DNA from: Ruficoccus sp. ZRK36
GTDB taxonomy: Bacteria > Verrucomicrobiota > Verrucomicrobiia > Opitutales > Cerasicoccaceae
Direction of reading: 5' to 3'
DNA: 64,000 nucleotides
NCBI RefSeq assembly: GCF_019603315.1
Contig: NZ_CP080649.1
Span: forward strand, 3,172,176-3,236,175
Positions 22,869-34,597 of this stretch are shown piece after piece. The notes beneath the pieces were generated by a model, which was not told the origin of the DNA, searched no databases, and saw nothing but the letters and a program-made list of their open reading frames with translations. A program made the position numbers and the translations under genes. Every line of letters starts with the position of its first letter. Position 1 is the first letter of the stretch.

Positions 22869-23411
22869 TCAATGCTGATGACCGGCAGGCATGCTCTTGT
22901 CGTTCGTGTCACCCGCAACTTGCTTTTGGATGCTGCCGCAATGCAACATCATCGCGCCAAAATACGGGTTGGTGATGGTTTTATCAGCCTGTAGCCAATC
23001 GCCACCCTTTCCGCCTAAAGCCATCGGGCAGTGAGCCAGATATAAATCGGTACCGGCAGGCACTCCAACATGTGCAATCAGCGATTCCATTTTCGTGGAG
23101 AGAGTCGCGAAGGCTTCGCGCGCTGTTGCGAGCGTCGTTGCCTGGGCAATGGACTTGGCCGGTGCGTACAGATCCTCGACCACTGAGTCTACGCGTTTAC
23201 TTCCCGAAGGGGCCTGCTCCATGGACTTGAGGAAGCTCTTAGCGCCGATCTGGGCGTCGGATAGGTCATCCGATGAGAGGGCTTTCTGCATGCTCAGGTA
23301 GGGGCTGACGAGGGTGTCCACAAAGCCCGGCTTAAAGGCGTCGTCATGCGCCTGTGCGATATTCGCCAGGAGAAGTGAGAGCCCTAGGATAATAGTACGT
23401 ATGCTTTTCAT
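22869..23411 (-). CDS. Periplasmic DUF3347-type metal-efflux accessory protein
   Basis: 180 residues with a signal peptide (MKSIRTIILGLSLLLANIAQAH). The body is helical with the DUF3347 signature near the end: HCPMALGGKGGDWLQ then NPYFGAMMLHCG, and a His-rich tail GHQH. These Cys/Met/His sites probably bind metal. The start overlaps the pump gene by 4 bp (ATGA), making it the last gene of the seven-gene metal operon. The same domain forms the C-terminus of the adaptor protein at 27180-28982, so this looks like a free-standing copy that may hand metal to the pump. Confidence 0.78.
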   Translation of the reverse strand: MKSIRTIILGLSLLLANIAQAHDDAFKPGFVDTLVSPYLSMQKALSSDDLSDAQIGAKSFLKSMEQAPSGSKRVDSVVEDLYAPAKSIAQATTLATAREAFATLSTKMESLIAHVGVPAGTDLYLAHCPMALGGKGGDWLQADKTITNPYFGAMMLHCGSIQKQVAGDTNDKSMPAGHQH

Positions 23412-26400
23412 GGTTTGGTTGATTTGAGTTTCAAGGTGTGAGTGATTTCGGCCAATCCGCAGTAAAGAACCGGCACAACAAAAATGGTCAGGATAGCCAG
23501 CAGCATACCGCCAAAGGACGGGATAGCCATCGGCACCATGATGTCCGAGCCACGGCCAACAGAGGTGAGGACCGGCAGGAGCGCGAGAATCGTCGTCGCG
23601 CTCGTCATCATGGCCGGGCGCACGCGGCGGGTGCCGGCCTCAACGGTGGCGGCCCTGATTTGCTCAAGAGTCGTTGGATTCTTTTCTCTGAAAATCTGCT
23701 GAAGATAGGTGCAGACGATGACGCCGTTGTCGGTAGCGATCCCAAAGAGAGCCAGGAACCCGACCCAGACGGCTACGCTGAGATTGACCGTGTCCACCTG
23801 AAACAGTGCCCTCAGGTCGTGCCCGAAGAAGCTGACATCGAGGAACCAGGGCTGGCCGTAGAGCCAGATCAGGATGAAACCACCCGACCAGGCGAAGACA
23901 ATGCCTGAGAAAACAAGCAAGGTCGTGGCAATCCGCTTGAATTGGAAGTAGAGGATCAGCCAGATCGCAAACAAAGCGATCGGCAGCACGATGCGAAGCT
24001 TTTTCTCGGCGCGCACCTGATTCTCGTAGCTTCCGGTGAACTTGTAGCTGACCCCGGCGGGGATGACGAGCTCACCGCTATTTATTTTATCCTGCAGGAG
24101 TTGCTGCGCCTGCTCGACAACCTCGACCTCTGCGTAGCCCTCGGCCTTGTCGAAAATCACGTAGCCGACCAGAAAGGTGTCTTCACTCTTGATGACCTGA
24201 GGCCCGCGCACGTAGTCGATACTCGCGAGCTCGCGCAGGGGGATTTGCGTACCGTCGGGTGCCGCGACAAGGATGTCCTCAATCGCCTCGATGGTATCCC
24301 GCAGCTCACGCATGTAGCGTACGCGCACCGGATAGCGCTCGCGCCCCTCAACGGTCTGCGTGATAGGCTTACCGCCGATGGCGACCTCGATCACATCCTG
24401 CACGGACTTGATTTTGATGCCGTAGCGCGCGATGGCGTCCCGGTCGATGTTGATTTCCAGATAGGGTTTGCCGACGATGCGGTCCGCGAGCACCGTCTCC
24501 GGGTTGATGGACGGCACCTGCTTAAGCGCACCCTCGATCTCCATGGCAACACCCTCCAGCGTCTCCAGGTCCGGCCCATACACCTTCAAGCCCATTGGTG
24601 CCCGCATGCCGCTCTGTAGCATGACAATGCGCGCCGCAATGGGCTGGAGCTTCGGGGCGGACGTCGTACCGGGGATCGTCGCGGCCTTCACGATCTCCTT
24701 CCAGATATCATCGGGACTCTTGATCGTGTCGCGCCACTGGCGGAAGGGGCGACCGTCTTTGTCGGGGATGAGCTCCCCGGCTTCGTCACGCTTGAAGTCC
24801 CCGGCAGACTTGTCGTAAGCAAAGGTGAGGATACGCCCGTTCTCGTCGGTGATGTACTCCGGCTTATAGGTGATGATGGTCTCGATCATCGAGATCGGCG
24901 CGGGGTCGAGCGGGCTGTCCACCCGGCCCAGTTTACCCACAGCGCGCTCCACCTCGGGAATGGCATTGATAGCCATGTCCTGCTTGCTGAGCACATCCCT
25001 GACCTCACCGATAGAGGCGTGTGGCATCGTCGTAGGCATGAGCAGGTAGGAGCCTTCGTCCAGCGCCGGCATAAACTCCTTACCAAGGCCTGGGATAGCA
25101 TGCGCCATCGTCACGTAGGGACGGGACTGGCGGATAGATTCCGGTAGCCAGCCGAAGACCTTCCCCCACCCCAGCCAGGCCGTAAAACCAAAAAGGATGA
25201 TAACGAAGCACGCCGCCAGGAACAGCAACTTCATGCGCAGCAGCGATGCCAGTATCCGGGAGTAAAACTTGATGAAGAGCAGGAAAAACCCCAGCAGTCC
25301 GCCCACCACGATCAGGACAAAGAAAATGTTGCTCAGGTGCTGCTCGGGGCCGAGGGGCTTCCAGTCCGCAGCCAGCCAGAGCGCCACGATCACGGCCACG
25401 ATGAAATTGAAAGCGAAGAAGACGCCCCGGCGCACCCAGTCCGGTATTCTGGAACTAGCCAAATGAAAGGCGGCTGCCACGATCATCAACAGGCCAAGCC
25501 ATCCGGGGAACCAGCTGATGAGCAGCCCCCCGATGAGACCGATCACGCCAACGCCGGACCACAACCCGGTCTTTGCCCAGGACGACTTGTAACGACCAGC
25601 AATAAACCAATGGGCAAGCGGCGGTATAATCGTCAGCGCGACCACGATCGAGCCGATCAGGGCAAAGGTCTTGGTATAGGCCAGCGGGCGGAAGAGCTTA
25701 CCCTCGGCGGCCTCCATGGTGAATACCGGCAAAAAGCTGATGACCGTCGTCAGCACGGCTGTCACCACTGCGCCGCCGACCTCGCTGCACGCACGATAGA
25801 CGACCTCTAGGCGATCCTCCCCCGGTGGGGCCTCGTCGAGGTGCTTCAGGATATTCTCAATCAGGACCACGCCCATGTCCACAATCGTCCCAATGGCGAT
25901 GGCTATACCGGAGAGCGCGACCACATTAGCGTCCACGCCAAAGAGCTTCATACCGATGAAGGCAAACAGGACCGCCAGTGGCAGAACACCTGAGATCAGC
26001 GCGGCACTGCGCAGGTGCAGCACCATGAGAACAACGACGATGATGGTGACGAGGATCTGTTGCCGGACCGCGTCCTCCAGCGTGCCCAGCGTCTCGTGGA
26101 TCAGACCGGTGCGGTCATAGAACGGAACAATCTCCACCTGGCTCACCGTGCCGTCCGCGAGGGTCTTTTTCGGCAGGCCGGGAGATATCTCTGCGATTTT
26201 CTCTTTGACCCGTTTGATCACCGCCAGTGGGTTTTCACCGTAGCGCGTCACGACTACACCGCCCACGGCCTCGGCTCCAGCCTTGTCGAGCGCACCGCGG
26301 CGCAGTGCCGGTCCGAACTCGATCTCGGCCACCTGCTCCAGGGTGATCGGCACGTTATCCCGCTGCGTGATGACGCTCTTGCGCAGGTCATCCAGATTCT

Positions 26401-27190
26401 TGATGAAGCCGAGCCCCCGGACCACGTATTCGGCGGCATTGATTTCAATCGTACGAGCGCCGACATCCAGATTACTGCCACGCACGGCCTCGAAAACCTC
26501 CTGCAGGGTAATGCCGTAGGTGCGTAAGGCGTCGGGATCAACATCCACCTGATACTCTTTCACATAGCCACCGATGGAGGCCACCTCGGCCACCCCGTCT
26601 ACGCCCTGGAGCGCATACCGGACGTACCAGTCCTGTACACTGCGCAGCTCCTCCGGGTCCCAGCCTCCGGCAGGCTTGCCGTCCGGGCCCATCCCCTCGA
26701 GCGTGTACCAGAAAACCTGCCCAAGCGCGGTAGCGTCCGGCCCGAGCTGGGGCGACACTCCCTGCGGCAAGGTCCCCGACGGCAGGCTGTTGAGCTTTTC
26801 CAGGATGCGGCTGCGCGTCCAGTAGAACCCGGCGTCCTCCTTGAAGATGATGTAGATCGAGGAGAACCCGAACATCGAGTAACTGCGGATCGTTTTAACC
26901 TCCGGAAGACCGAGCAAGGCCGTTGTCAAGGGGTACGTGATCTGATCTTCGATGTCCTGTGGCGAGCGCCCCATCCACTCCGTGAAAACAATCTGCTGGT
27001 TTTCTCCGATGTCCGGGATCGCATCCACGGGCACAGGGTCGCGCGGGAGGATATCCGACTCCCAGTCAAAAGGAGCAACGGACACGCCCCAGAGGATGAG
27101 CACCACCGCAAAGAGGATGACGACCAGCTTGTTTTCGAGACAAAAGCGAATCAGGCCGTTGATGGGATTAAACGAAGGTTTACTGCTCAT
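23408..27190 (-). CDS. cusA: Heavy-metal efflux RND pump (CusA/CzcA family)
   Basis: 1260 residues from ATG 27190, which overlaps the adaptor stop by 11 bp; the frame extends ten codons further upstream but that lies inside the adaptor gene. Twelve-helix HME-RND architecture with DPVPVDAIPDIGENQ at the N-terminus, porter loops, and the TM4 motif AIAIGTIVDMGVVLIEN, which resembles the Cu(I)/Ag(I) group (AIGxxVDxxxVMIEN) more than the Ni/Co/Zn groups (DFGxxxDGA). Met residues are kept in GKEFMPALDEG, LLMPTTMP and RIVMLQSGM, where CusA has its methionine relay. It is longer than E. coli CusA (about 1047): an extra block of about 150 residues around 555-700 adds several membrane segments. It pumps metal from periplasm or cytoplasm into the TolC-like channel; the exact metal is uncertain. 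Confidence 0.88.
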   Translation of the reverse strand: MSSKPSFNPINGLIRFCLENKLVVILFAVVLILWGVSVAPFDWESDILPRDPVPVDAIPDIGENQQIVFTEWMGRSPQDIEDQITYPLTTALLGLPEVKTIRSYSMFGFSSIYIIFKEDAGFYWTRSRILEKLNSLPSGTLPQGVSPQLGPDATALGQVFWYTLEGMGPDGKPAGGWDPEELRSVQDWYVRYALQGVDGVAEVASIGGYVKEYQVDVDPDALRTYGITLQEVFEAVRGSNLDVGARTIEINAAEYVVRGLGFIKNLDDLRKSVITQRDNVPITLEQVAEIEFGPALRRGALDKAGAEAVGGVVVTRYGENPLAVIKRVKEKIAEISPGLPKKTLADGTVSQVEIVPFYDRTGLIHETLGTLEDAVRQQILVTIIVVVLMVLHLRSAALISGVLPLAVLFAFIGMKLFGVDANVVALSGIAIAIGTIVDMGVVLIENILKHLDEAPPGEDRLEVVYRACSEVGGAVVTAVLTTVISFLPVFTMEAAEGKLFRPLAYTKTFALIGSIVVALTIIPPLAHWFIAGRYKSSWAKTGLWSGVGVIGLIGGLLISWFPGWLGLLMIVAAAFHLASSRIPDWVRRGVFFAFNFIVAVIVALWLAADWKPLGPEQHLSNIFFVLIVVGGLLGFFLLFIKFYSRILASLLRMKLLFLAACFVIILFGFTAWLGWGKVFGWLPESIRQSRPYVTMAHAIPGLGKEFMPALDEGSYLLMPTTMPHASIGEVRDVLSKQDMAINAIPEVERAVGKLGRVDSPLDPAPISMIETIITYKPEYITDENGRILTFAYDKSAGDFKRDEAGELIPDKDGRPFRQWRDTIKSPDDIWKEIVKAATIPGTTSAPKLQPIAARIVMLQSGMRAPMGLKVYGPDLETLEGVAMEIEGALKQVPSINPETVLADRIVGKPYLEINIDRDAIARYGIKIKSVQDVIEVAIGGKPITQTVEGRERYPVRVRYMRELRDTIEAIEDILVAAPDGTQIPLRELASIDYVRGPQVIKSEDTFLVGYVIFDKAEGYAEVEVVEQAQQLLQDKINSGELVIPAGVSYKFTGSYENQVRAEKKLRIVLPIALFAIWLILYFQFKRIATTLLVFSGIVFAWSGGFILIWLYGQPWFLDVSFFGHDLRALFQVDTVNLSVAVWVGFLALFGIATDNGVIVCTYLQQIFREKNPTTLEQIRAATVEAGTRRVRPAMMTSATTILALLPVLTSVGRGSDIMVPMAIPSFGGMLLAILTIFVVPVLYCGLAEITHTLKLKSTKP

Positions 27191-28982
27191 GGCCTGAGTG
27201 GTCCTGGGTTTCGTCGCCAATCGTTTCCATCACGTCTCCGCAGCCCAGCATCCCGGGGCCATAATACGGGTTCTGCAAAGGCTCTGAGACCTGCAGCCAA
27301 TTCGCGCCCGCGTTGTTGTTGGCCATCGGGCAATGCATCACGACCAAGGGCTGAGTCAGACGGTCGGGATGTTGCTTCGCGGCCATAATGAGCGCATTCG
27401 ATAAGCTCTCAAAGGATGGCAGGCGGAAAGCCTCCAGCGTCTTCGCGGCAAGCATTTCATGGAGCAGTGCAGGCAGGCTGCCGCTGTGTCCGGTGATCGC
27501 CATCATGGCTTTGGCCTGCTCCTTGGCGTCGCTCAGATCGTCTGCCGCGAGGGCTGTCTGCATCTTCAGGTAGGGGTCAAGCAAAGCAGGTAGCTTATCC
27601 ACAGGGATTTCCAGCATCGTCATCCCGGCGTTCGAGGCGTGTTCGCCACTGCTAGCCGCCGGTGTCGAGCCTCCGTGGTTGTGGCCGGGCACGGGACCGC
27701 CGCCCTCGGGGTTCATCATGCTCGGCTTGGCCTGGATCTGCAGAGCGCTGTCGATCTTAAAGGCCCCGTGGGTGACGACGCGCTCGCCAGCGCCCAGACC
27801 GGAGACGACGATGTAATGATCCCCGGCCCGTGGCCCGAGAACGATCTCGCGCCCTTCGTAGGTCGGGCGCTCCGCACCCGGCTTCTCCACATAGACGACC
27901 GCACGCTTACCGGTGCGCAAAACCGCGGACGCGGGGACAATGACGGGCGGCGATTCCGCCTCATCAACGCTCCCCCCTACTCCCAGCCGCGCCTTAACCT
28001 CAGCGCGCACAAACATGCCCGGCTTCAGGCGTTCATCACCGTTGGGCACATTCAGGCGGACAGGGATCGTCCGGGTCTTACGATCTACCACCGGCTCGAT
28101 GAATACGATTTCCCCATGGAAGGTCTCCCCCGGTACCGACTCCACGGTGAAAGTCACATCCTGCCCCTCACGCAGCCAGGGCAGGTCGGACTCATAGGCG
28201 TCCAGCGTGGCCCAAAGCTCGCTCAAATCGACAATCTTGAAAAGCGGCTCTCCAGTTTTGACGTAATCGCCTTCCTTAACATTTTTGGCAACGACCACGC
28301 CTCCGACCGGCGCTTTCAGTTCGAAGTGATCCCGAGCCTTTCCGCTTTCGATGATCTCATCAATCTGCTCGGGCAGCAGGTCCCAGAGCCGGAGTTTATC
28401 TCTGGCGACACGGGTCAGCGAACTGTCAGGGCCAGCACGGTAGGCGGTCAGAAGCTCACGCTGTGCGCTCAGCAGCTCAGGGCTATAAACCGTGGCCAAG
28501 CGATCGCCCGCCTTCACGCGGATGCCCGTATAATTAACGAACAGCTCATCGATGCGGGCAGGGAAACGGGCAGCGAGAGATTTCTCGCGGGTTTCGTCAT
28601 AATCGAGCTTACCCACCAGCCGAATATCTGCCTCGGGAAAATCCTGGCGCACCAACGTCGTCTGAATATCCGCCAACGCCCGAGACGCCTCGCTCATGCT
28701 CAGAACCCGTGGGCCATCCTGCCCCCCGGCCTCTTCGACAAGCGGTATCAAATCCATGCCGCAGATGGGGCACTTACCCGGCTTTGTCTGCCGGATCTGA
28801 GGGTGCATCGAGCAGGTCCAGATGGTCGGCTTGGTGGCCTCGTCAGTCTTTTGCGTCGTCGTCGCATCAGAGGCAGACACCGTTGCGGTGGTATCCTCCG
28901 AGACGTAGTGCCCGATCCCAATACCCGCAAGGAGTGCTGCCGCCACGAGGGCGCCCGCTGTAAAAATCGTTTTCTTATTCAT
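27180..28982 (-). CDS. cusB: RND efflux periplasmic adaptor with heavy-metal-binding domain and C-terminal DUF3347
   Basis: 600 residues. N-terminal membrane anchor or signal (residues 8-25). A heavy-metal-binding domain spans about 54-82 with Cys57, His60, Cys71 and Cys74 in WTCSMHPQI and CPICGMDL. The membrane-fusion-protein core (barrel-sandwich, hairpin, beta-barrel) is at about 90-425. A His-rich linker (PGHNHGG) leads to a DUF3347 domain at about 460-595 with MHCPMANNN and NPYYGPGMLGCG. CusB-type adaptors carry Cu/Ag from periplasmic chaperones to CusA. Its start overlaps the channel gene stop by 8 bp. The fused DUF3347 is a duplicate of the separate protein at 22869-23411. Confidence 0.88.
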   Translation of the reverse strand: MNKKTIFTAGALVAAALLAGIGIGHYVSEDTTATVSASDATTTQKTDEATKPTIWTCSMHPQIRQTKPGKCPICGMDLIPLVEEAGGQDGPRVLSMSEASRALADIQTTLVRQDFPEADIRLVGKLDYDETREKSLAARFPARIDELFVNYTGIRVKAGDRLATVYSPELLSAQRELLTAYRAGPDSSLTRVARDKLRLWDLLPEQIDEIIESGKARDHFELKAPVGGVVVAKNVKEGDYVKTGEPLFKIVDLSELWATLDAYESDLPWLREGQDVTFTVESVPGETFHGEIVFIEPVVDRKTRTIPVRLNVPNGDERLKPGMFVRAEVKARLGVGGSVDEAESPPVIVPASAVLRTGKRAVVYVEKPGAERPTYEGREIVLGPRAGDHYIVVSGLGAGERVVTHGAFKIDSALQIQAKPSMMNPEGGGPVPGHNHGGSTPAASSGEHASNAGMTMLEIPVDKLPALLDPYLKMQTALAADDLSDAKEQAKAMMAITGHSGSLPALLHEMLAAKTLEAFRLPSFESLSNALIMAAKQHPDRLTQPLVVMHCPMANNNAGANWLQVSEPLQNPYYGPGMLGCGDVMETIGDETQDHSGHEQ

Positions 28983-30312
28983 CGTTCTGTGTCACGTGAA
29001 AGGTTCCCAGGATTGGAAGATTCGCCAGGGCCTGGATGTTAACGCGCTGCTGCCAGGCATCCGAGGCGGCACGCCAGTAGAGCAGTTGCAGGTCGAGCAG
29101 CGAGCGCTCGCTGTCGATCAGGTCCAGTATCCCGAGCTGTCCGGTCTCATAGCCCGATCGGCTATTCTCAGCGGCCTGCTCGGCCAGCCCCAGTAAATCC
29201 TCTCCGTAGAGCTGCAGCCGGCGATTAGCATCCGCCAGACCAGACAGGCTCACGGTCAACTGCGTGCGCAGAGTGTTGAGCTGGTTGTCATATTCACTCT
29301 CGAAGGAGCGCTGGTTGGCCAGGGCCTCGGCCTTGGCGGCATCGTACTTACCGAACCAGATGGGGATGTTTACCGCGACGGTGAAGCCCCAAGGGTCCTG
29401 GCCCGCATCGGGTGTGTTCGGGTTGACCACGGGGTCGCCTGTCTGGATGTAGTTAAAGCCGAGGGTAATGTCGGGATAGCTTTCCAGGCGGGCGATCTCG
29501 CGTCGCGCCTCAGCACTGGTGATTTTACGCTCCAGCATTTGCAGGCCGGGGTTGTTAGCCTCCATCGCCACTGCCAGGGAGGGACCATCCGGAGTGATGA
29601 TATCTGGAGCCTCCCACTGCGGCCAGGGCAGCACCTCTTCTCCGGGCAGGGCGAGCAACTCCCGCAGCCTGGCGGACTGTGAGACGCGCTGCTGCTGCAA
29701 GGATTGCAGCCGGTCATCCACTTTCCCGATCTCCACCTTCAGGCGCAGGAGCGCATTGATATCGCCACCTGCCCGGATCTTTTCTTCGATGATCGGCTCC
29801 AGCTTACTGAGCAGCTCAACATTCTCCTGCGTGAGCCGGATGGCCTCCTCGATGTAGCCGTATTCGTAGAATGCGACGGACACGCTACGGGCCAGCGTTA
29901 ATTGCTGATTCTGGTAGGCGAACCAGAGCGCCTGGGCCTCGGCCGATGCGGCGCTTTCCCGGCTGCTCAGCTTACCGAACCACGGAATCTTCTGACTGAA
30001 TGTAAATACGTTCTCCTGCGGGCCGGTGCGCGTCTGGACCGACTCGACGAAATGCGTCACCTGAAACATCGGATCCGGCAGAGCAGAGACCTGCGGGACG
30101 CGCTGCGTGGCGGCGTCATAGCGGCGAGAGAAGGCTTTCAACTGCGGGTTGGCGGCCATCGCCTGCGCCAGGTAGCTCTGCAGATCAGACACCGGCATGG
30201 GCAGGGATTCGGAAGCTTCAACGGCTGCCTGAAGCGACTGGCCTGCCCCCAGTACCGCCATGGCAAAACCAATGCCTGCTCTCAGCGTTTTTATAAATGG
30301 GCTTCGATTCAT
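28975..30312 (-). CDS. cusC: TolC/CusC-family outer-membrane efflux channel
   Basis: 445 residues with an N-terminal signal (hydrophobic segment ending GAGQSLQAAVEA) and the repeated helical coiled-coil pattern of TolC-family proteins (AYQNQQLTLARSVSVAFYEYGY, LRTQLTVSLSGLADANRRL). There is no clear lipobox Cys, unlike E. coli CusC. It forms the outer-membrane exit duct of the pump. It is the first structural gene of the efflux part and is preceded by its own copy of the ECF-like promoter (30323-30355). Confidence 0.85.
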   Translation of the reverse strand: MNRSPFIKTLRAGIGFAMAVLGAGQSLQAAVEASESLPMPVSDLQSYLAQAMAANPQLKAFSRRYDAATQRVPQVSALPDPMFQVTHFVESVQTRTGPQENVFTFSQKIPWFGKLSSRESAASAEAQALWFAYQNQQLTLARSVSVAFYEYGYIEEAIRLTQENVELLSKLEPIIEEKIRAGGDINALLRLKVEIGKVDDRLQSLQQQRVSQSARLRELLALPGEEVLPWPQWEAPDIITPDGPSLAVAMEANNPGLQMLERKITSAEARREIARLESYPDITLGFNYIQTGDPVVNPNTPDAGQDPWGFTVAVNIPIWFGKYDAAKAEALANQRSFESEYDNQLNTLRTQLTVSLSGLADANRRLQLYGEDLLGLAEQAAENSRSGYETGQLGILDLIDSERSLLDLQLLYWRAASDAWQQRVNIQALANLPILGTFHVTQNDE

Positions 30313-30322
30313 TTATGCCTAC

Positions 30323-30355
30323 TTAAACGCAGGCATCGCCGTAAACCCTCAAAAT
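30323..30355 (-). promoter_or_regulatory. ECF-like promoter before the efflux channel gene
   Basis: On the minus strand, TTTTGAGGGTTTAC, then 10 nt, then GCGTTTAA, in the 45-bp gap between the sigma-factor gene and the channel gene. The same two boxes with the same 10-nt gap stand before the first gene of the operon (31766-31799). The second box ends 10 nt before the ATG at 30312, so the transcript would be leaderless or nearly so. In Cupriavidus the CnrH sigma factor drives exactly these two positions (cnrY and cnrC promoters). The assignment here is inferred from the duplicate and the context. Confidence 0.7.
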
Positions 30356-30357
30356 AT

Positions 30358-30942
30358 TCAGAGCAGATTGGCCAGTTTATCGCGCAGCCACTTTCTGGCC
30401 CGGTAGATGCGCGTTTCCACCGTCTTGCGGCTCGTCTTCAGGATCGCCGCGCACTCATCGTAGGCGTGCTCCTCCAAAACACAGTACACGAAGGGGAATT
30501 TCAGCTTCTCTGGTAAAGTGTGGATGGCGGTATTGATGCGACGGATCGCGTCCGAGGACTGTAGCTCCTCATGCGGATCAGCTCCCCCCGCATCGATAGA
30601 CCCGAGCAGAGGGGTTACGCCTTGCCGATCATCGGAGGGGGTGTCCAGGGATACATTCCCACGATGCTTTTTCTGGCGGCGCAACCGATCCCTGCACAAA
30701 TTCAGCGCGATCGCAAAGATCCACGTCTTTACCGCAGCACGGGGAGAGTAGCGGGCTGCGTTTTGATAGACGCGATAAAAAGCCTCCTCGGTTATCTCAG
30801 CGGAATCACTTTCATTACCCAAGTACCGGTACGTGAAGCGGAAAAGCGGCTCCTTGTAGCGTCCCATCAGGCAGGCCAAGGCCTGTTCATCTCCATGGGC
30901 GATTCGCTGGATGAGCTGACTGTCGTCATCGTTTTCCGGCAT
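30358..30942 (-). CDS. ECF-type sigma-70 family factor (CnrH-like position)
   Basis: 194 residues. Region 2 is at about 20-95 (LFRFTYRYLGNESDSAEITEEAFYRVY and KTWIFAIALNLCRDRLRR), followed by an acidic linker and region 4 at about 135-190 (LPEKLKFPFVYCVLEEHAYDECAAIL and SRKTVETRIYRARKWLRDKL). It has only regions 2 and 4, as in ECF factors. It is the third gene of the operon, after a membrane anti-sigma-like protein and a periplasmic sensor, which is the CnrY-CnrX-CnrH order. Expected action: held at the membrane until metal binds the sensor, then it transcribes the operon from the two matching promoters. Confidence 0.88.
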   Translation of the reverse strand: MPENDDDSQLIQRIAHGDEQALACLMGRYKEPLFRFTYRYLGNESDSAEITEEAFYRVYQNAARYSPRAAVKTWIFAIALNLCRDRLRRQKKHRGNVSLDTPSDDRQGVTPLLGSIDAGGADPHEELQSSDAIRRINTAIHTLPEKLKFPFVYCVLEEHAYDECAAILKTSRKTVETRIYRARKWLRDKLANLL

Positions 30943-30949
30943 GAGAGAA

Positions 30950-31420
30950 TCATTGGGGAATACTCAACGCCTGCCCTGCAAGCTTCTTGAGGCGCTCTTG
31001 CTTATCCGGAGGCAGGACACTCATCATCTGGAAATAATGACGGATGGCCAGCTCCTGCAACTGCCCATGGACGAGGTGGAGCTCATGGATCGCGTGCTGC
31101 ACCTCAGGGGAAAACTGATCGGAACTGACAAGCAGCTCCCGCAGGTCCTCGATCTTTGCCTGAAATGCCGCCTGCAGGACTGCCTTCTCTTGGCGGTATT
31201 TCGGCTCAAACTCATCGATAGCCGCCGCTTCTTCATCCGTTAAATTCAGCTCCTTGTGCAGCCACTGATGCCCGTGCGCGGCGTCATGTTGACTCCAGTC
31301 CTCACGGGGCATCATGAACAACGAGGTCAGAAACGACACCCCAATACAGAGCACGATGAGACCGGCAAAGACTGCGAGCAGGAGACCCGCTTTACTCCCT
31401 TTATGACTTCCGCCGCTCAT
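30950..31420 (-). CDS. Periplasmic metal sensor, CnrX-like
   Basis: 156 residues: an N-terminal membrane helix (about 11-36) and a helical periplasmic domain of the Metal_resist/CnrX type. The five residues that bind Ni/Co in CnrX (His42, His46, Glu63, His119, Met123) all have a counterpart shifted by exactly nine: His51 and His55 in HQWLH, Glu72 in FEPKY, His128 and Met132 in HYFQM. The gene lies 2 bp after the anti-sigma-like gene and 7 bp before the sigma gene. It probably senses periplasmic metal and controls release of the sigma factor. The ligand match is read from the sequence; the metal is inferred. Confidence 0.82.
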   Translation of the reverse strand: MSGGSHKGSKAGLLLAVFAGLIVLCIGVSFLTSLFMMPREDWSQHDAAHGHQWLHKELNLTDEEAAAIDEFEPKYRQEKAVLQAAFQAKIEDLRELLVSSDQFSPEVQHAIHELHLVHGQLQELAIRHYFQMMSVLPPDKQERLKKLAGQALSIPQ

Positions 31421-31422
31421 GC

Positions 31423-31758
31423 TCAGTGCGCGTTATCAAAGTTCATGATTTCGTTGTTGCTCAAAACGCCAAAATCTAGCGCCCTGACGGCTAGCTGCTG
31501 CTTGTGAGCGACAGAGATTTGGGTAGTGGTCTTCATGACTGTCATGAAGACACTTACGCCAACAACCAGGGTAATGACTGCGGCCACAAAAGCAGGTTTC
31601 GGCAGGAGGGCCGTGAACCACGACCAAAGCAGTCCCTCTGATTCATTACGGGATAGTCGGACTCTACGCAGTACATGACTTTCCAGCGAACCAGGGCAGT
31701 CCGGGAGTGGCGACTGCCTGACCTGCGTAATGAGATTATCAAATTCCTGATCCGTCAT
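31423..31758 (-). CDS. Membrane anti-sigma-like protein (CnrY position)
   Basis: 111 residues: a cytoplasmic N-terminal half of about 50 residues, one membrane helix at about 55-75 (PAFVAAVITLVVGVSVFMTVM) and a short periplasmic tail. Size, topology and place as first gene before a CnrX-like sensor and an ECF factor match CnrY, the membrane anti-sigma factor of CnrH. No zinc-binding anti-sigma motif is seen. Direct similarity to CnrY is weak, so the role rests on topology and context. The ATG is only 7 nt from the downstream box of the ECF-like promoter and there is no Shine-Dalgarno sequence. Confidence 0.65.
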   Translation of the reverse strand: MTDQEFDNLITQVRQSPLPDCPGSLESHVLRRVRLSRNESEGLLWSWFTALLPKPAFVAAVITLVVGVSVFMTVMKTTTQISVAHKQQLAVRALDFGVLSNNEIMNFDNAH

Positions 31759-31765
31759 AGTCTAT

Positions 31766-31799
31766 TAAACGCGAGTTTCCCTGAAAACCCTCAAAAATG
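31766..31799 (-). promoter_or_regulatory. ECF-like promoter before the metal operon
   Basis: On the minus strand, TTTTGAGGGTTTTC, then 10 nt, then GCGTTTAA. It is the twin of the promoter at 30323-30355: about 20 of 22 box positions match and the spacing is identical. The downstream box ends 7 nt before the ATG at 31758, predicting a leaderless mRNA and autoregulation by the operon's own sigma factor. Confidence 0.7.
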
Positions 31800-31894: not shown

Positions 31895-31940
31895 AAACCC
31901 CGGCGTCCCTACCCGACTTCCCCGGCCAGGGACGCCGGGG
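31895..31940 (-). terminator. Terminator of the LVIVD-repeat gene
   Basis: A perfect 13-bp inverted repeat (CCCCGGCGTCCCT at 31898-31910 and its complement at 31928-31940). On the minus strand the stem is followed by TTTTGC. It lies 39 bp beyond the stop of the minus-strand gene at 31979 and insulates it from the metal operon promoter. Confidence 0.8.
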
Positions 31941-31978: not shown

Positions 31979-34597
31979 TTACTCAGAGGTGAGCCCAGCC
32001 AGCTCAAAGCTGGCGAGCCCCCCGTAGCCCAGAGGGAGATAGATGCGGTTTCCATCTGAGATTGGACGAGAGGGATTTCCCTTGAACGTGACTTTCTTAA
32101 CAAGCGCCGGGGCCACGCTCCTGTCTTCAGAGAGTTTATAAACGGATAACTCCCCCTTACTGCGACTCGCAATAAGCAGGTAGTCACCGATCACGGTAGG
32201 GACTCCCGCTGTATAATTTATCGATAAGGTTTCCACATGCGGGTTAGAGGCCAGAGAGGATGAGTAAACGCCTTTATTTGTAGGATCAAAGCGGTACAGC
32301 TTACTCCCGGCGGTTCCCAGTACTTGATCACCATCGGCAGCCAAGCCGAAGCCCTGTCGCATACCACTTACCCAGGTTTCGTTGATCACGGGGTCAGCAG
32401 CGCTTCCGCCCACGCCAAAATCGCACACAACGGTTTTCGAGCCATTGGCGAAGACCATCAGGTATCTGTCTTGAGCGCACTCCCGGGTGATTTGATTCTG
32501 GTACACCATTGTGTAGGGGAATTTCTGGTACGCCTTCGGATTTGCGATATCCGACACATCGATAAGTGCTGAGGTATTCCCTCTCTGTACGAGTGCAAAC
32601 CTGGCATCGGGCGAAAGCGCCACCTCTACAATCGGCGAAACACCAGATTTGTAGCCGCCCTTGTAGGTGATTTTATCCGGGCTGGTCTCGTCGATCTCGT
32701 AAATGCACAGGCCAGCCGTGTTCTCAGCAGCGTAGATCTTGTTTCCAACGATTTGGATGTCATTGGTGATATCGTGCGAGGGGTATTGGCTGATGATGTT
32801 CATCTCATCGTCGATGACGTAGATACCATCTGCCCCCGATGCCACGTAGGTGTAGTCACCATACCTGGCACAGGCCCAGACCTGACTGCCCGGCTGAAAT
32901 AACCTACCCTCCTTAAAGCCCATCGCACTCAGGTCATTCGAGAAATAAGAGCCCGTGTATGCCTGCTTCGGGAAAACCGTTGAGTCATCTTTATCCGTAG
33001 CCTCTGCCAGATAATCCTTTCCGTGGAGCACATACAGATCATTCGACTTATTGGCGATATACATGGTCCCGTCCTGTACATCGCAGTCGATCAAGGCCCC
33101 ATGTCTTTCCAGCTCTGGATCGTACGGAAAGACCCAGGTAGACTTCGGCTTAGACTTACTAAACCCGGGCTCCCCCTCCTTGGCCATGACCTCGATGTGT
33201 GCCACGCGTTTCGGCAGGCGCTTATCTGTCGTATCGTAGACGTAGATGCCATTATAGGTGCTCGCAAGGTATGCGTAATGACCGGCAACACTCACACGCC
33301 AGACATCCGGGTAGGAGCAGTACATGCGCCCATCGGCTCTCACCCGGGAGAGCAACACAGGATTCTCAGGGTCGGTGATATCATACATCTCCATACCATT
33401 ACCGAGTGCGTAGCCTGGGCTCGTCGCCTGCGGAGTCTTACTCTCCATATGCCCGGTGGCAGCGTACAAGATACCCTGCTTGATATTAACGCCGTCGCCA
33501 CGCCCTTTCAGCTGTATGTCACCGATAACACGGGGATTTTCAACATCGCGCACGTCGCACACTCTCACCTTACAAGCCCCCCATACGCCCGCATAGAGGT
33601 ATCCGTTGTAGACCTTACAGTCCTGCGTCTCTCCGGTCGGGATATTAGAGACCATGACAGGATGATAGAGGTCAGAGATATCAACAATATCGACGCCAAA
33701 GACCCGGTCCGCGATAAAGCAATACTTACCCTGTATATCAATCCCTGTGGCTGCCTCCAGCGAATCAATCCGGGACGCAAGTACTGGATTCACAGGATCG
33801 GAGATGTCGAAGACAAAAACCTCATTCGTTCTGGCGGTCACGACAAGCCCCTGCCCGTCGTCGGTGATACTCATTTGTCTAAAATCGCCATAGGGCTTCG
33901 TGCTCTTAACCAGCGTTGGGTTATCGCCACGATCATTGGCCTGGAAGACGTGCAACCCCTTATTCGTAATGGCGTAGATATACTCGCCGTTTGCGATAAC
34001 ATCCGCGCAGTTACCGATCCCCATGCCTTCGCCCCAATCGACAACAACAGTCTCCCAGCCATCAGACTCGACCATGTAGTAGCCGCTCCTGGCTCCCTCG
34101 AATGTGGTATCACTGGCATCGACGCGAATCCCCCCCAGGTAGACTTTCTGGAGCTGCCCCCCGAGTGTCATCCGGATATTCACCTCGTTGCCGGTAGCTT
34201 TGAAAGGAACAAAGATCTGCGTCCATTGCCCGCAAAGCTGATAAGTGAAACCCGTGAGCTCTTTTCCAGACTTGTCGTCGATCGACACCTTCAGCGTGTC
34301 ATACGCATCGGTCACTTTTGCATAAAAACTGAGCACGTAGACCTTTCCGGCCACCAACTCAAACGGCTCGACGGGCACACTGATCCCAAACGAGTCGCTC
34401 TTCGGCAAAGCCGTGCAATCAAGCTCCAAAGCGTTTGTCAGACCGGCGCAATCATTGACCGGGGCGTTTTTCAGGGTCCCATATTCACCGCCGACCAACG
34501 TAATGTCAGTCGCATCGGCTTCCATGGCATAGGCACTTGCTCCCAGGAAGAACAACAGGGCAAACATCAGGGGTAGGATTTTATCTTTCATCAGCAT
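31979..34597 (-). CDS. Secreted LVIVD-repeat beta-propeller protein with N-terminal carbohydrate-binding-like domain
   Basis: 872 residues. Signal peptide MKDKILPLMFALLFFLGASAYA (ATG at 34597 or 34591). Residues 30-165 look like a jelly-roll carbohydrate-binding domain (VPVEPFELVAGKVYVLSFYAKV, IFVPFKATGNEVNIRMTLGG). After that come at least eight LVIVD-type blades, each with a pattern like VFDISDPVNPVLASRID, VDIVDISDLYHPVMV, VCDVRDVENPRVIG and MYDITDPENPVLLSR. Such propellers are extracellular or periplasmic and usually bind partners. It lies next to the beta-mannosidase gene, suggesting a role in glycan handling, but no enzyme motif is visible. Confidence 0.8.
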   Translation of the reverse strand: MLMKDKILPLMFALLFFLGASAYAMEADATDITLVGGEYGTLKNAPVNDCAGLTNALELDCTALPKSDSFGISVPVEPFELVAGKVYVLSFYAKVTDAYDTLKVSIDDKSGKELTGFTYQLCGQWTQIFVPFKATGNEVNIRMTLGGQLQKVYLGGIRVDASDTTFEGARSGYYMVESDGWETVVVDWGEGMGIGNCADVIANGEYIYAITNKGLHVFQANDRGDNPTLVKSTKPYGDFRQMSITDDGQGLVVTARTNEVFVFDISDPVNPVLASRIDSLEAATGIDIQGKYCFIADRVFGVDIVDISDLYHPVMVSNIPTGETQDCKVYNGYLYAGVWGACKVRVCDVRDVENPRVIGDIQLKGRGDGVNIKQGILYAATGHMESKTPQATSPGYALGNGMEMYDITDPENPVLLSRVRADGRMYCSYPDVWRVSVAGHYAYLASTYNGIYVYDTTDKRLPKRVAHIEVMAKEGEPGFSKSKPKSTWVFPYDPELERHGALIDCDVQDGTMYIANKSNDLYVLHGKDYLAEATDKDDSTVFPKQAYTGSYFSNDLSAMGFKEGRLFQPGSQVWACARYGDYTYVASGADGIYVIDDEMNIISQYPSHDITNDIQIVGNKIYAAENTAGLCIYEIDETSPDKITYKGGYKSGVSPIVEVALSPDARFALVQRGNTSALIDVSDIANPKAYQKFPYTMVYQNQITRECAQDRYLMVFANGSKTVVCDFGVGGSAADPVINETWVSGMRQGFGLAADGDQVLGTAGSKLYRFDPTNKGVYSSSLASNPHVETLSINYTAGVPTVIGDYLLIASRSKGELSVYKLSEDRSVAPALVKKVTFKGNPSRPISDGNRIYLPLGYGGLASFELAGLTSE

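Follow-up and report, generated by a model that had tools for sequence, protein, structure and literature searches.

Which metal does a CnrYXH-type sigma switch answer to when it is found in a verrucomicrobial genome? The question is raised by a seven-gene operon of Ruficoccus sp. ZRK36 (assembly GCF_019603315.1, contig NZ_CP080649.1), since CnrYXH is presented in the accessible part of PMC7689651 as a nickel and cobalt device of Cupriavidus. The operon lies in a stretch of 64,000 nucleotides (positions 3,172,176 to 3,236,175 of the contig), referred to here as the window. The original prediction, made from the letters alone, described it as a cnr-type metal operon. This description stands for the sensor with the CnrX fold, the anti-sigma-like small membrane protein, the extracytoplasmic function (ECF) sigma factor, the resistance-nodulation-division (RND) efflux operon and the paired promoters, and does not stand for the metal. 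We propose, with a probability of about 0.78, that the locus is a copper- or silver-responsive branch of CnrYXH which controls a CusCBA-type efflux operon, the metal being one that we infer from the sequences. The features concerned are the following.

31765..31793, minus strand: predicted ECF promoter before Y, TGAGGGTTT-N13-CGTTTAA, 29 bases
31758-31423, minus strand: Y, small membrane protein with one helix and a predicted anti-sigma role; its N-terminal part (about 36 aa) is homologous to Y proteins of alphaproteobacteria
31420-30950, minus strand: X, predicted membrane-anchored periplasmic metal sensor with CnrX fold; H51, H55, E72, H128 and M132, plus H115 and H118
30942-30358, minus strand: H, ECF sigma factor with sigma-70 regions 2 and 4 and no Cys-rich tail
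30323..30351, minus strand: second predicted ECF promoter, same element, in the H-C gap before C
30312-28975, minus strand: C, outer-membrane efflux channel of the OEP family
28982-27180, minus strand: B, CusB-type adaptor; heavy-metal-binding domain at the N-terminus, DUF3347-like stretch at the C-terminus
27220-23408, minus strand: A, CusA-type RND pump with methionine triad M728, M778 and M867
23411-22869, minus strand: DUF3347 gene (Pfam DUF3347)

All seven open reading frames (ORFs) were found where they had been placed, in one direction, with gaps of 2 (Y/X), 7 (X/H) and 45 bases (H/C) followed by overlaps (C/B, B/A and A/DUF3347 gene); A has an alternative internal ATG start at 27190. 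Their order had been equated with that of cnrYXHCBAT of Cupriavidus metallidurans CH34 (pMOL28), with which the operon shares the YXH-CBA order, an ECF sigma factor and a CnrX-fold sensor with five ligands at the same spacing. The equation holds for six genes (Y-X-H-C-B-A) and breaks down at the seventh, a DUF3347 gene standing where cnr has cnrT. X is above the cut-off of the Pfam family Metal_resist (8.7e-10). Pfam also recognized sigma-70 regions 2 and 4 in H, an outer membrane efflux protein in C, CusB/HlyD barrel-sandwich and heavy-metal-binding domains in B and the AcrB/AcrD/AcrF family in A. What sequence or model shows is the set of parts in this order, the fold of the sensor, the promoter elements in two places and the CusA triad.

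The sensor X was said to carry all five CnrX ligands, and alignment with CnrX (cnrX of C. metallidurans pMOL28) bears this out: H51, H55, E72, H128 and M132 fall on CnrX positions 42, 46, 63, 119 and 123 at a constant offset of nine. The match is more than chance, because X matches CnrX and NccX in a phmmer search against PDB (E of about 2e-6), belongs to the Pfam family named above, and has relatives, 12 in number, whose profile matches NccX at 1.6e-10. An AlphaFold2 model of X, built from 17 sequences, reached a mean predicted local distance difference test (pLDDT) of 85.5 and a predicted template modelling score (pTM) of 0.64. In a Foldseek comparison with PDB the 15 top matches of this model were all CnrX or NccX (best E 6.9e-4, template modelling score 0.81 on the target), two of the 382 matches having E <= 0.001; one CnrX structure among the matches, 3epv, is titled apo and copper-bound. 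VIA-align gave a Z of 11.3 with CnrX (root mean square deviation 2.3 over 105 residues) and lower values with the STV protein (9.4), ZraP (8.7) and Spy (8.5). For helical bundles this tool warns that a Z below about 13 may reflect a common arrangement, so that the claim on the fold leans on the ranking and on the sequence matches. The clustering of the five residues into one site, a check named in the original prediction, was judged by this fold match. CnrX and NccX rank first in both structural comparisons, as the original prediction would have it, and judged by sequence and model X is a member of the CnrX family. Hydropathy places one membrane helix near its N-terminus (residues about 13-31), which suggests a membrane-anchored X with a periplasmic domain.

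The lower-ranking structural matches bear on a different explanation, according to which X resembles the CpxP, Spy and ZraP chaperones and senses misfolded protein or several metals, the operon being under a general envelope or mixed-metal stress switch with the pump as one target. ZraP, Spy and CpxP do have the same fold, although CnrX and NccX come before them and the metal-ligand residues are largely conserved; we regard such a switch as highly improbable, and return to it with the promoters. The conservation of the CnrX ligands, complete in X itself, does not extend to the whole family, in which three of the five vary. Among 24 distinct verrucomicrobial sensors, that of the window included, the five columns read H 23/T 1, H 19/S 3/Y 1/Q 1, E 21/D 3, H 24 and M 24. 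Two CnrX-like proteins encoded beside ECF sigma genes (L033, 4310-5466; L034, 5012-6161) are without four of the five ligands and perhaps sense something else.

The metal is suggested by the pump and by the company of the switch. Among solved structures the best match to pump A is CusA (2.3e-190), followed by ZneA (1.1e-118), and A is 31% identical to CnrA over the alignment. Residues M728, M778 and M867 align with M573, M623 and M672 of CusA, which we take to be its methionine triad. At these three positions a multiple alignment, in which the third stretch was read by eye, has Met/Met/Met in an Asticcacaulis pump and Ser, Ala and Glu in CnrA, and Met stands at all three in 11 of 11 pumps with these positions covered, among them that of the window and its paralogue. 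The adaptor B scores 130 bits, below the NCBI CusB cut-off of 390 bits. In its methionine triad, CusB-type adaptor and OEP channel the operon resembles CusCBA of Escherichia coli; the difference lies in the control, which is a sigma switch in the window and in E. coli the CusRS two-component system (PMC10141476, in its accessible part).

A second Y-X-H locus exists in the same genome (G000:C1:1018241-1031826, L110). Its order is promoter-Y-X-H-promoter-81 aa ORF-P-type ATPase-promoter-C-B-A-DUF3347, followed by a DDE transposase gene and by a further promoter site, with one mismatch, before a small ORF without family, which makes four sites in all. The ATPase passes the NCBI model for copper-translocating P-type ATPases (605.9 against 397 bits). 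The locus is possibly mobile; an integrase that had been guessed by eye nearby gave no Pfam match and is not claimed. Of the 24 distinct verrucomicrobial loci, 20 encode CusA, a copper-type ATPase or a multicopper oxidase in the DNA examined (the oxidase query itself passes the copper resistance oxidase model, 825 against 479 bits). Of 13 alphaproteobacterial plasmid loci, which were taken from match lists and not at random, 12 are annotated, and in all 12 copper genes stand beside the trio.

With a CusA-like pump, and with copper genes at the paralogous locus and at most of the relatives examined, the metal assignment of cnr is not supported, and the pump, the absence of cnrT and the Y protein do not allow the whole operon to be filed as cnr. 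It could be argued that this is nevertheless a true nickel and cobalt switch, in which the five-ligand site still reads these metals and a CusA-type pump was recruited for them, and the five ligands at exact spacing and the cnr order in six of seven genes agree with that. However, the CusA methionine triad is present and the CnrA pattern is not, cnrT is missing, the second locus and 20 of the 24 loci have copper genes, and CnrX positions 106 and 109 are not of the nickel type; we therefore consider this explanation unlikely.

These two positions correspond to H115 and H118 of X, where CnrX has E106 and A109. All 24 distinct verrucomicrobial sensors have His at both. In the alphaproteobacterial sensors they are His/Met (13/13), as they are in L032, a divergent verrucomicrobial relative, and in the nickel-type sensors Glu/Ala (3/3), this last sample being small and made up of mutually similar sequences (CnrX, NccX and the sensor of a cnr-like locus of Cupriavidus sp. 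USMAA2-4). Since His is found at 106 in verrucomicrobial and alphaproteobacterial sensors alike, Glu/Ala looks derived, however the nickel branch attaches. In point trees, mostly with low support, the nickel trio is nested in the copper-linked alphaproteobacterial group, and alphaproteobacterial monophyly is not rejected by the approximately unbiased (AU) test (p 0.36). Residues 115 and 118 sit 10-17 residues from 128 and 132 on the same predicted helix of the X model, and with this spacing they probably cannot join the five-ligand site within one chain; they might make up a second site or lie at a dimer interface.

From this we put forward, tentatively and as something that we would not bet on, that the CnrX family was copper-sensing at its root and is so in at least two phyla, that nickel and cobalt sensing by CnrX and NccX is derived, and that the inducer is set also by the 106/109 pair. 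His with His or Met would then be the copper-linked state and Glu with Ala the nickel-linked one, with the two residues acting as a second copper site or a gate. As the copper- and nickel-linked sensors examined differ in these two residues, the metal selectivity of the family can be tested by residue swaps. The structure of CnrX, a periplasmic metal sensor, has been solved, and the CnrX family would now have a copper branch in two phyla.

The predicted promoters would tie the operon to its own sigma factor by an element whose exact copies in the genome are confined to the two Y-X-H loci. The exact TGAGGGTTT-N13-CGTTTAA occurs five times in the genome (3.76 Mb) and its reversed control not at all; with up to two mismatches there are six sites against 0 for the control, the sixth having one mismatch, and all six belong to the window locus or to the second Y-X-H locus. 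In the promoter at 31765..31793 CGTT begins 13 nt upstream of the ATG of Y, counted from its C. A shorter form, TGAGGG-N16-CGTT, was counted 51 times in the 24 verrucomicrobial loci (443,501 bases) against 0-3 times in 20 block shuffles, these loci having been picked for the presence of the trio and their ORFs labelled from 13 query proteins only. Eighteen of the sites stand before Y, ten before C, three before DUF3347 genes and two before B-labelled ORFs; one each precedes an ATPase, a multicopper oxidase, a glutaredoxin and a permease gene, 13 precede unlabelled ORFs and one has no ORF. For the stress switch mentioned above one can point to the sites before the glutaredoxin-MauE protein, the amino-acid permease and the 13 unlabelled ORFs, yet 28 of the 51 sites are before Y or C.

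With the pattern [TC][GA]AGGG-N15-17-CGT[TA] an element was found before Y in 19 of 23 loci (L055 was left aside; L031, L041, L052 and L054 are the misses), the C of CGT being 13 or 14 nt from the start codon. A related element, under a looser pattern, precedes Y in 13 of 14 proteobacterial loci (L038 is without it), with CGT 23-47 nt from the start codon. The cnr operon itself has elements before Y and C with a GAGGG-like -35 part and a CGT -10 part, namely CAAGGG (cnrY) and CGAGGG (cnrC), each followed by N17 and CGTA, and the published starts lie 12 nt after the C of CGTA. The positions of these starts are from the accessible part of PMC9045368, where the cnrC start is classed as non-RpoD and the cnrY start is tabled under RpoD, although the text treats cnrYp as CnrH-controlled. 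The core of the promoter is thus recognizable in both phyla. As the -10-like box (31765-31771 in the window) is so close to the start codon of Y, the verrucomicrobial Y message would be nearly leaderless, with a predicted start 1-2 nt before the start codon (about 1 nt in the window, against 23-25 nt in cnr). Sigma-70-type promoters in the region were at chance level (3 found, mean 3.0). With this motif a candidate copper regulon can be read from sequence in poorly studied bacteria.

The sigma factor H has four cysteines, at 24, 83, 154 and 164. Like CorE it is an ECF sigma factor linked to copper, and it differs from CorE in that its cysteines are scattered and form no tail; the accessible part of PMC3107203 describes CorE-type factors of Myxococcus xanthus, with two Verrucomicrobia listed, as having a Cys-rich C-terminal domain and no linked anti-sigma factor. 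In a tree whose references were 6 of the 13 own-genome sigma genes above the cut-off (two of the 13 being those of the trios) and two plasmid ones, the verrucomicrobial H proteins and that of L032 form one clade (96/92), those of L033 and L034 lie outside it, and CnrH forms a group with the sigma factors of the alphaproteobacterial trios (97/87).

Several observations weigh against a copper-type CnrYXH switch, and concern in part its kinship with CnrYXH and in part the metal. H matches the solved structure of SigW (8.5e-23) better than that of CnrH (6.8e-8), and a joint clade of verrucomicrobial H and CnrH is neither recovered nor rejected (p-AU 0.233). A looser promoter pattern, with one mismatch, adds three genome sites against four for its control. 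In the 64-kb window tblastn found no copper ATPase, CopB or multicopper oxidase, and four of the 24 loci (L030, L031, L043 and L051) have no CusA, copper-type ATPase or oxidase above the thresholds; below these, there is an ATPase match of 60 bases at the end of L043, and L051 has an ATPase match at 38% and a pump match at 34%. The ATPase of the second locus passes the cadmium-family model as well, with a lower score (409.6 against 313.5 bits). With its five-ligand nickel/cobalt site intact, X may sense nickel or cobalt. Lastly, NF033790, the model for CnrY and NccY, matches CnrY and does not match the Y of the window, CnrY is not detected by a Y profile (hhalign, 12 Y sequences against CnrY, 0.1%), and the predicted anti-sigma role of Y is based on its place, its topology and its homology to alphaproteobacterial Y proteins.

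Y has a single membrane helix near residue 57 (hydropathy) and no Pfam family match, and together with the undetected CnrY this would fit an arrangement in which H is controlled by X without Y, or by a further protein, and Y does no more than aid membrane assembly. On the other hand, Y stands before X in 24 of 24 loci, and the 36 residues at its N-terminus match those of the Y proteins that occupy the same place in six alphaproteobacterial trios (hhalign 94.6%); the score is 45.2, and 60 column shuffles reached 14.3 at best. We find it very unlikely that Y is not the anti-sigma factor. CnrY is the outlier, as it matches neither the verrucomicrobial nor the alphaproteobacterial set. In PDB the Y profile matched a designed protein (E 2.4e-4) and one other (E 0.84); both matches, and a weak match of the sensor profile to Y (7.7%), were taken as chance.

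In the copper- or silver-responsive switch that we favour, the cytoplasmic N-terminus of Y would tether H to the inner membrane. Next to Y, X would be anchored in the membrane and would bind copper (or silver) through its helical domain on the periplasmic side; the change in X would pass to Y, upon which H would be released. RNA polymerase with H would then start at two promoters, the one before Y (autoregulation) and the one before C, and more channel, adaptor and pump, together with the DUF3347 protein, would remove the metal from the periplasm. We infer the sequestration and the release of H as well as the identity of the metal. The role of the DUF3347 protein is a guess, namely a periplasmic metal-binding accessory.

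The original prediction, for which the system was known from proteobacteria only, spoke of a far-flung copy. The copy is not isolated: 24 distinct verrucomicrobial loci were examined, and a like trio stands beside copper genes on the sphingomonad and caulobacter plasmids examined. The search for the trio across Verrucomicrobiota, made with X as bait, found Y and H adjoining in 24 of 24 distinct loci. Four loci were excluded from these 24, namely L032 (divergent, all five ligands present, a Y-like ORF before X but none that tblastn matched to Y), L033 and L034 (four of the five ligands lacking, no Y match) and L058 (sensor frame ending early at 92 aa, no Y match); over all 28, Y was matched in 24 and H in 28. 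The sensor is present in 14 of 54 genomes in the neighbourhood of the window's own and in 32 of 387 genomes of the phylum, with the own genome included in both counts and weak and divergent matches counted in the latter. The named records among 19 loci include Coraliomargarita, Pelagicoccus, Puniceicoccaceae, Opitutales and one Kiritimatiellaeota. The copper-type branch would thus be patchily spread, with the nickel form as one branch.

When X and H were searched separately in plasmids, several alphaproteobacterial loci were common to the best matches. Alphaproteobacterial trios, for example those on Sphingobium, Croceicoccus and Asticcacaulis plasmids, are annotated as hypothetical protein, periplasmic heavy metal sensor and RNA polymerase sigma factor, and stand by multicopper oxidase and CopB genes. 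They resemble the window in order, in the N-terminus of Y, in the His at 106 of the sensor, in the promoter core, in their copper neighbours and, in some loci, in glutaredoxin, APC-permease and channel genes; they differ in having Met and not His at 109 and in being placed mostly before copper oxidase and CopB genes, and not directly before CusCBA. In Erythrobacter ani nccX and cus genes have been annotated together (PMC9283347, accessible part). In the texts available, our literature search, which covered few subscription papers, brought up neither a copper-linked CnrYXH switch nor any CnrYXH switch of Verrucomicrobiota.

Genes for a glutaredoxin-MauE protein, an amino-acid permease and a small channel occur near copper trios of both phyla (L023, 12599-15142; L036, 3930-6471; L123, 1-2422), and some of these groups stand behind the same promoter element. 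Across the phyla the glutaredoxins near the trios are 51% and the permeases 53% related. Given these related genes, the copies on alphaproteobacterial plasmids and the transposase gene at the second locus, it is plausible from the sequences that the module moved between lineages.

DUF3347 is found twice in the operon: weakly at the end of the adaptor (27180-28982), where the stretch scores 20.7 bits and is under the Pfam cut-off of 25.5, and again as a protein of its own (22869-23411). Upstream of the operon a G+C-rich inverted repeat, GGCGTCCC...GGGACGCC, is present at 31902-31936 of the window. It stands after a same-strand LVIVD-repeat gene (31979-34597) and may be the terminator of that gene.

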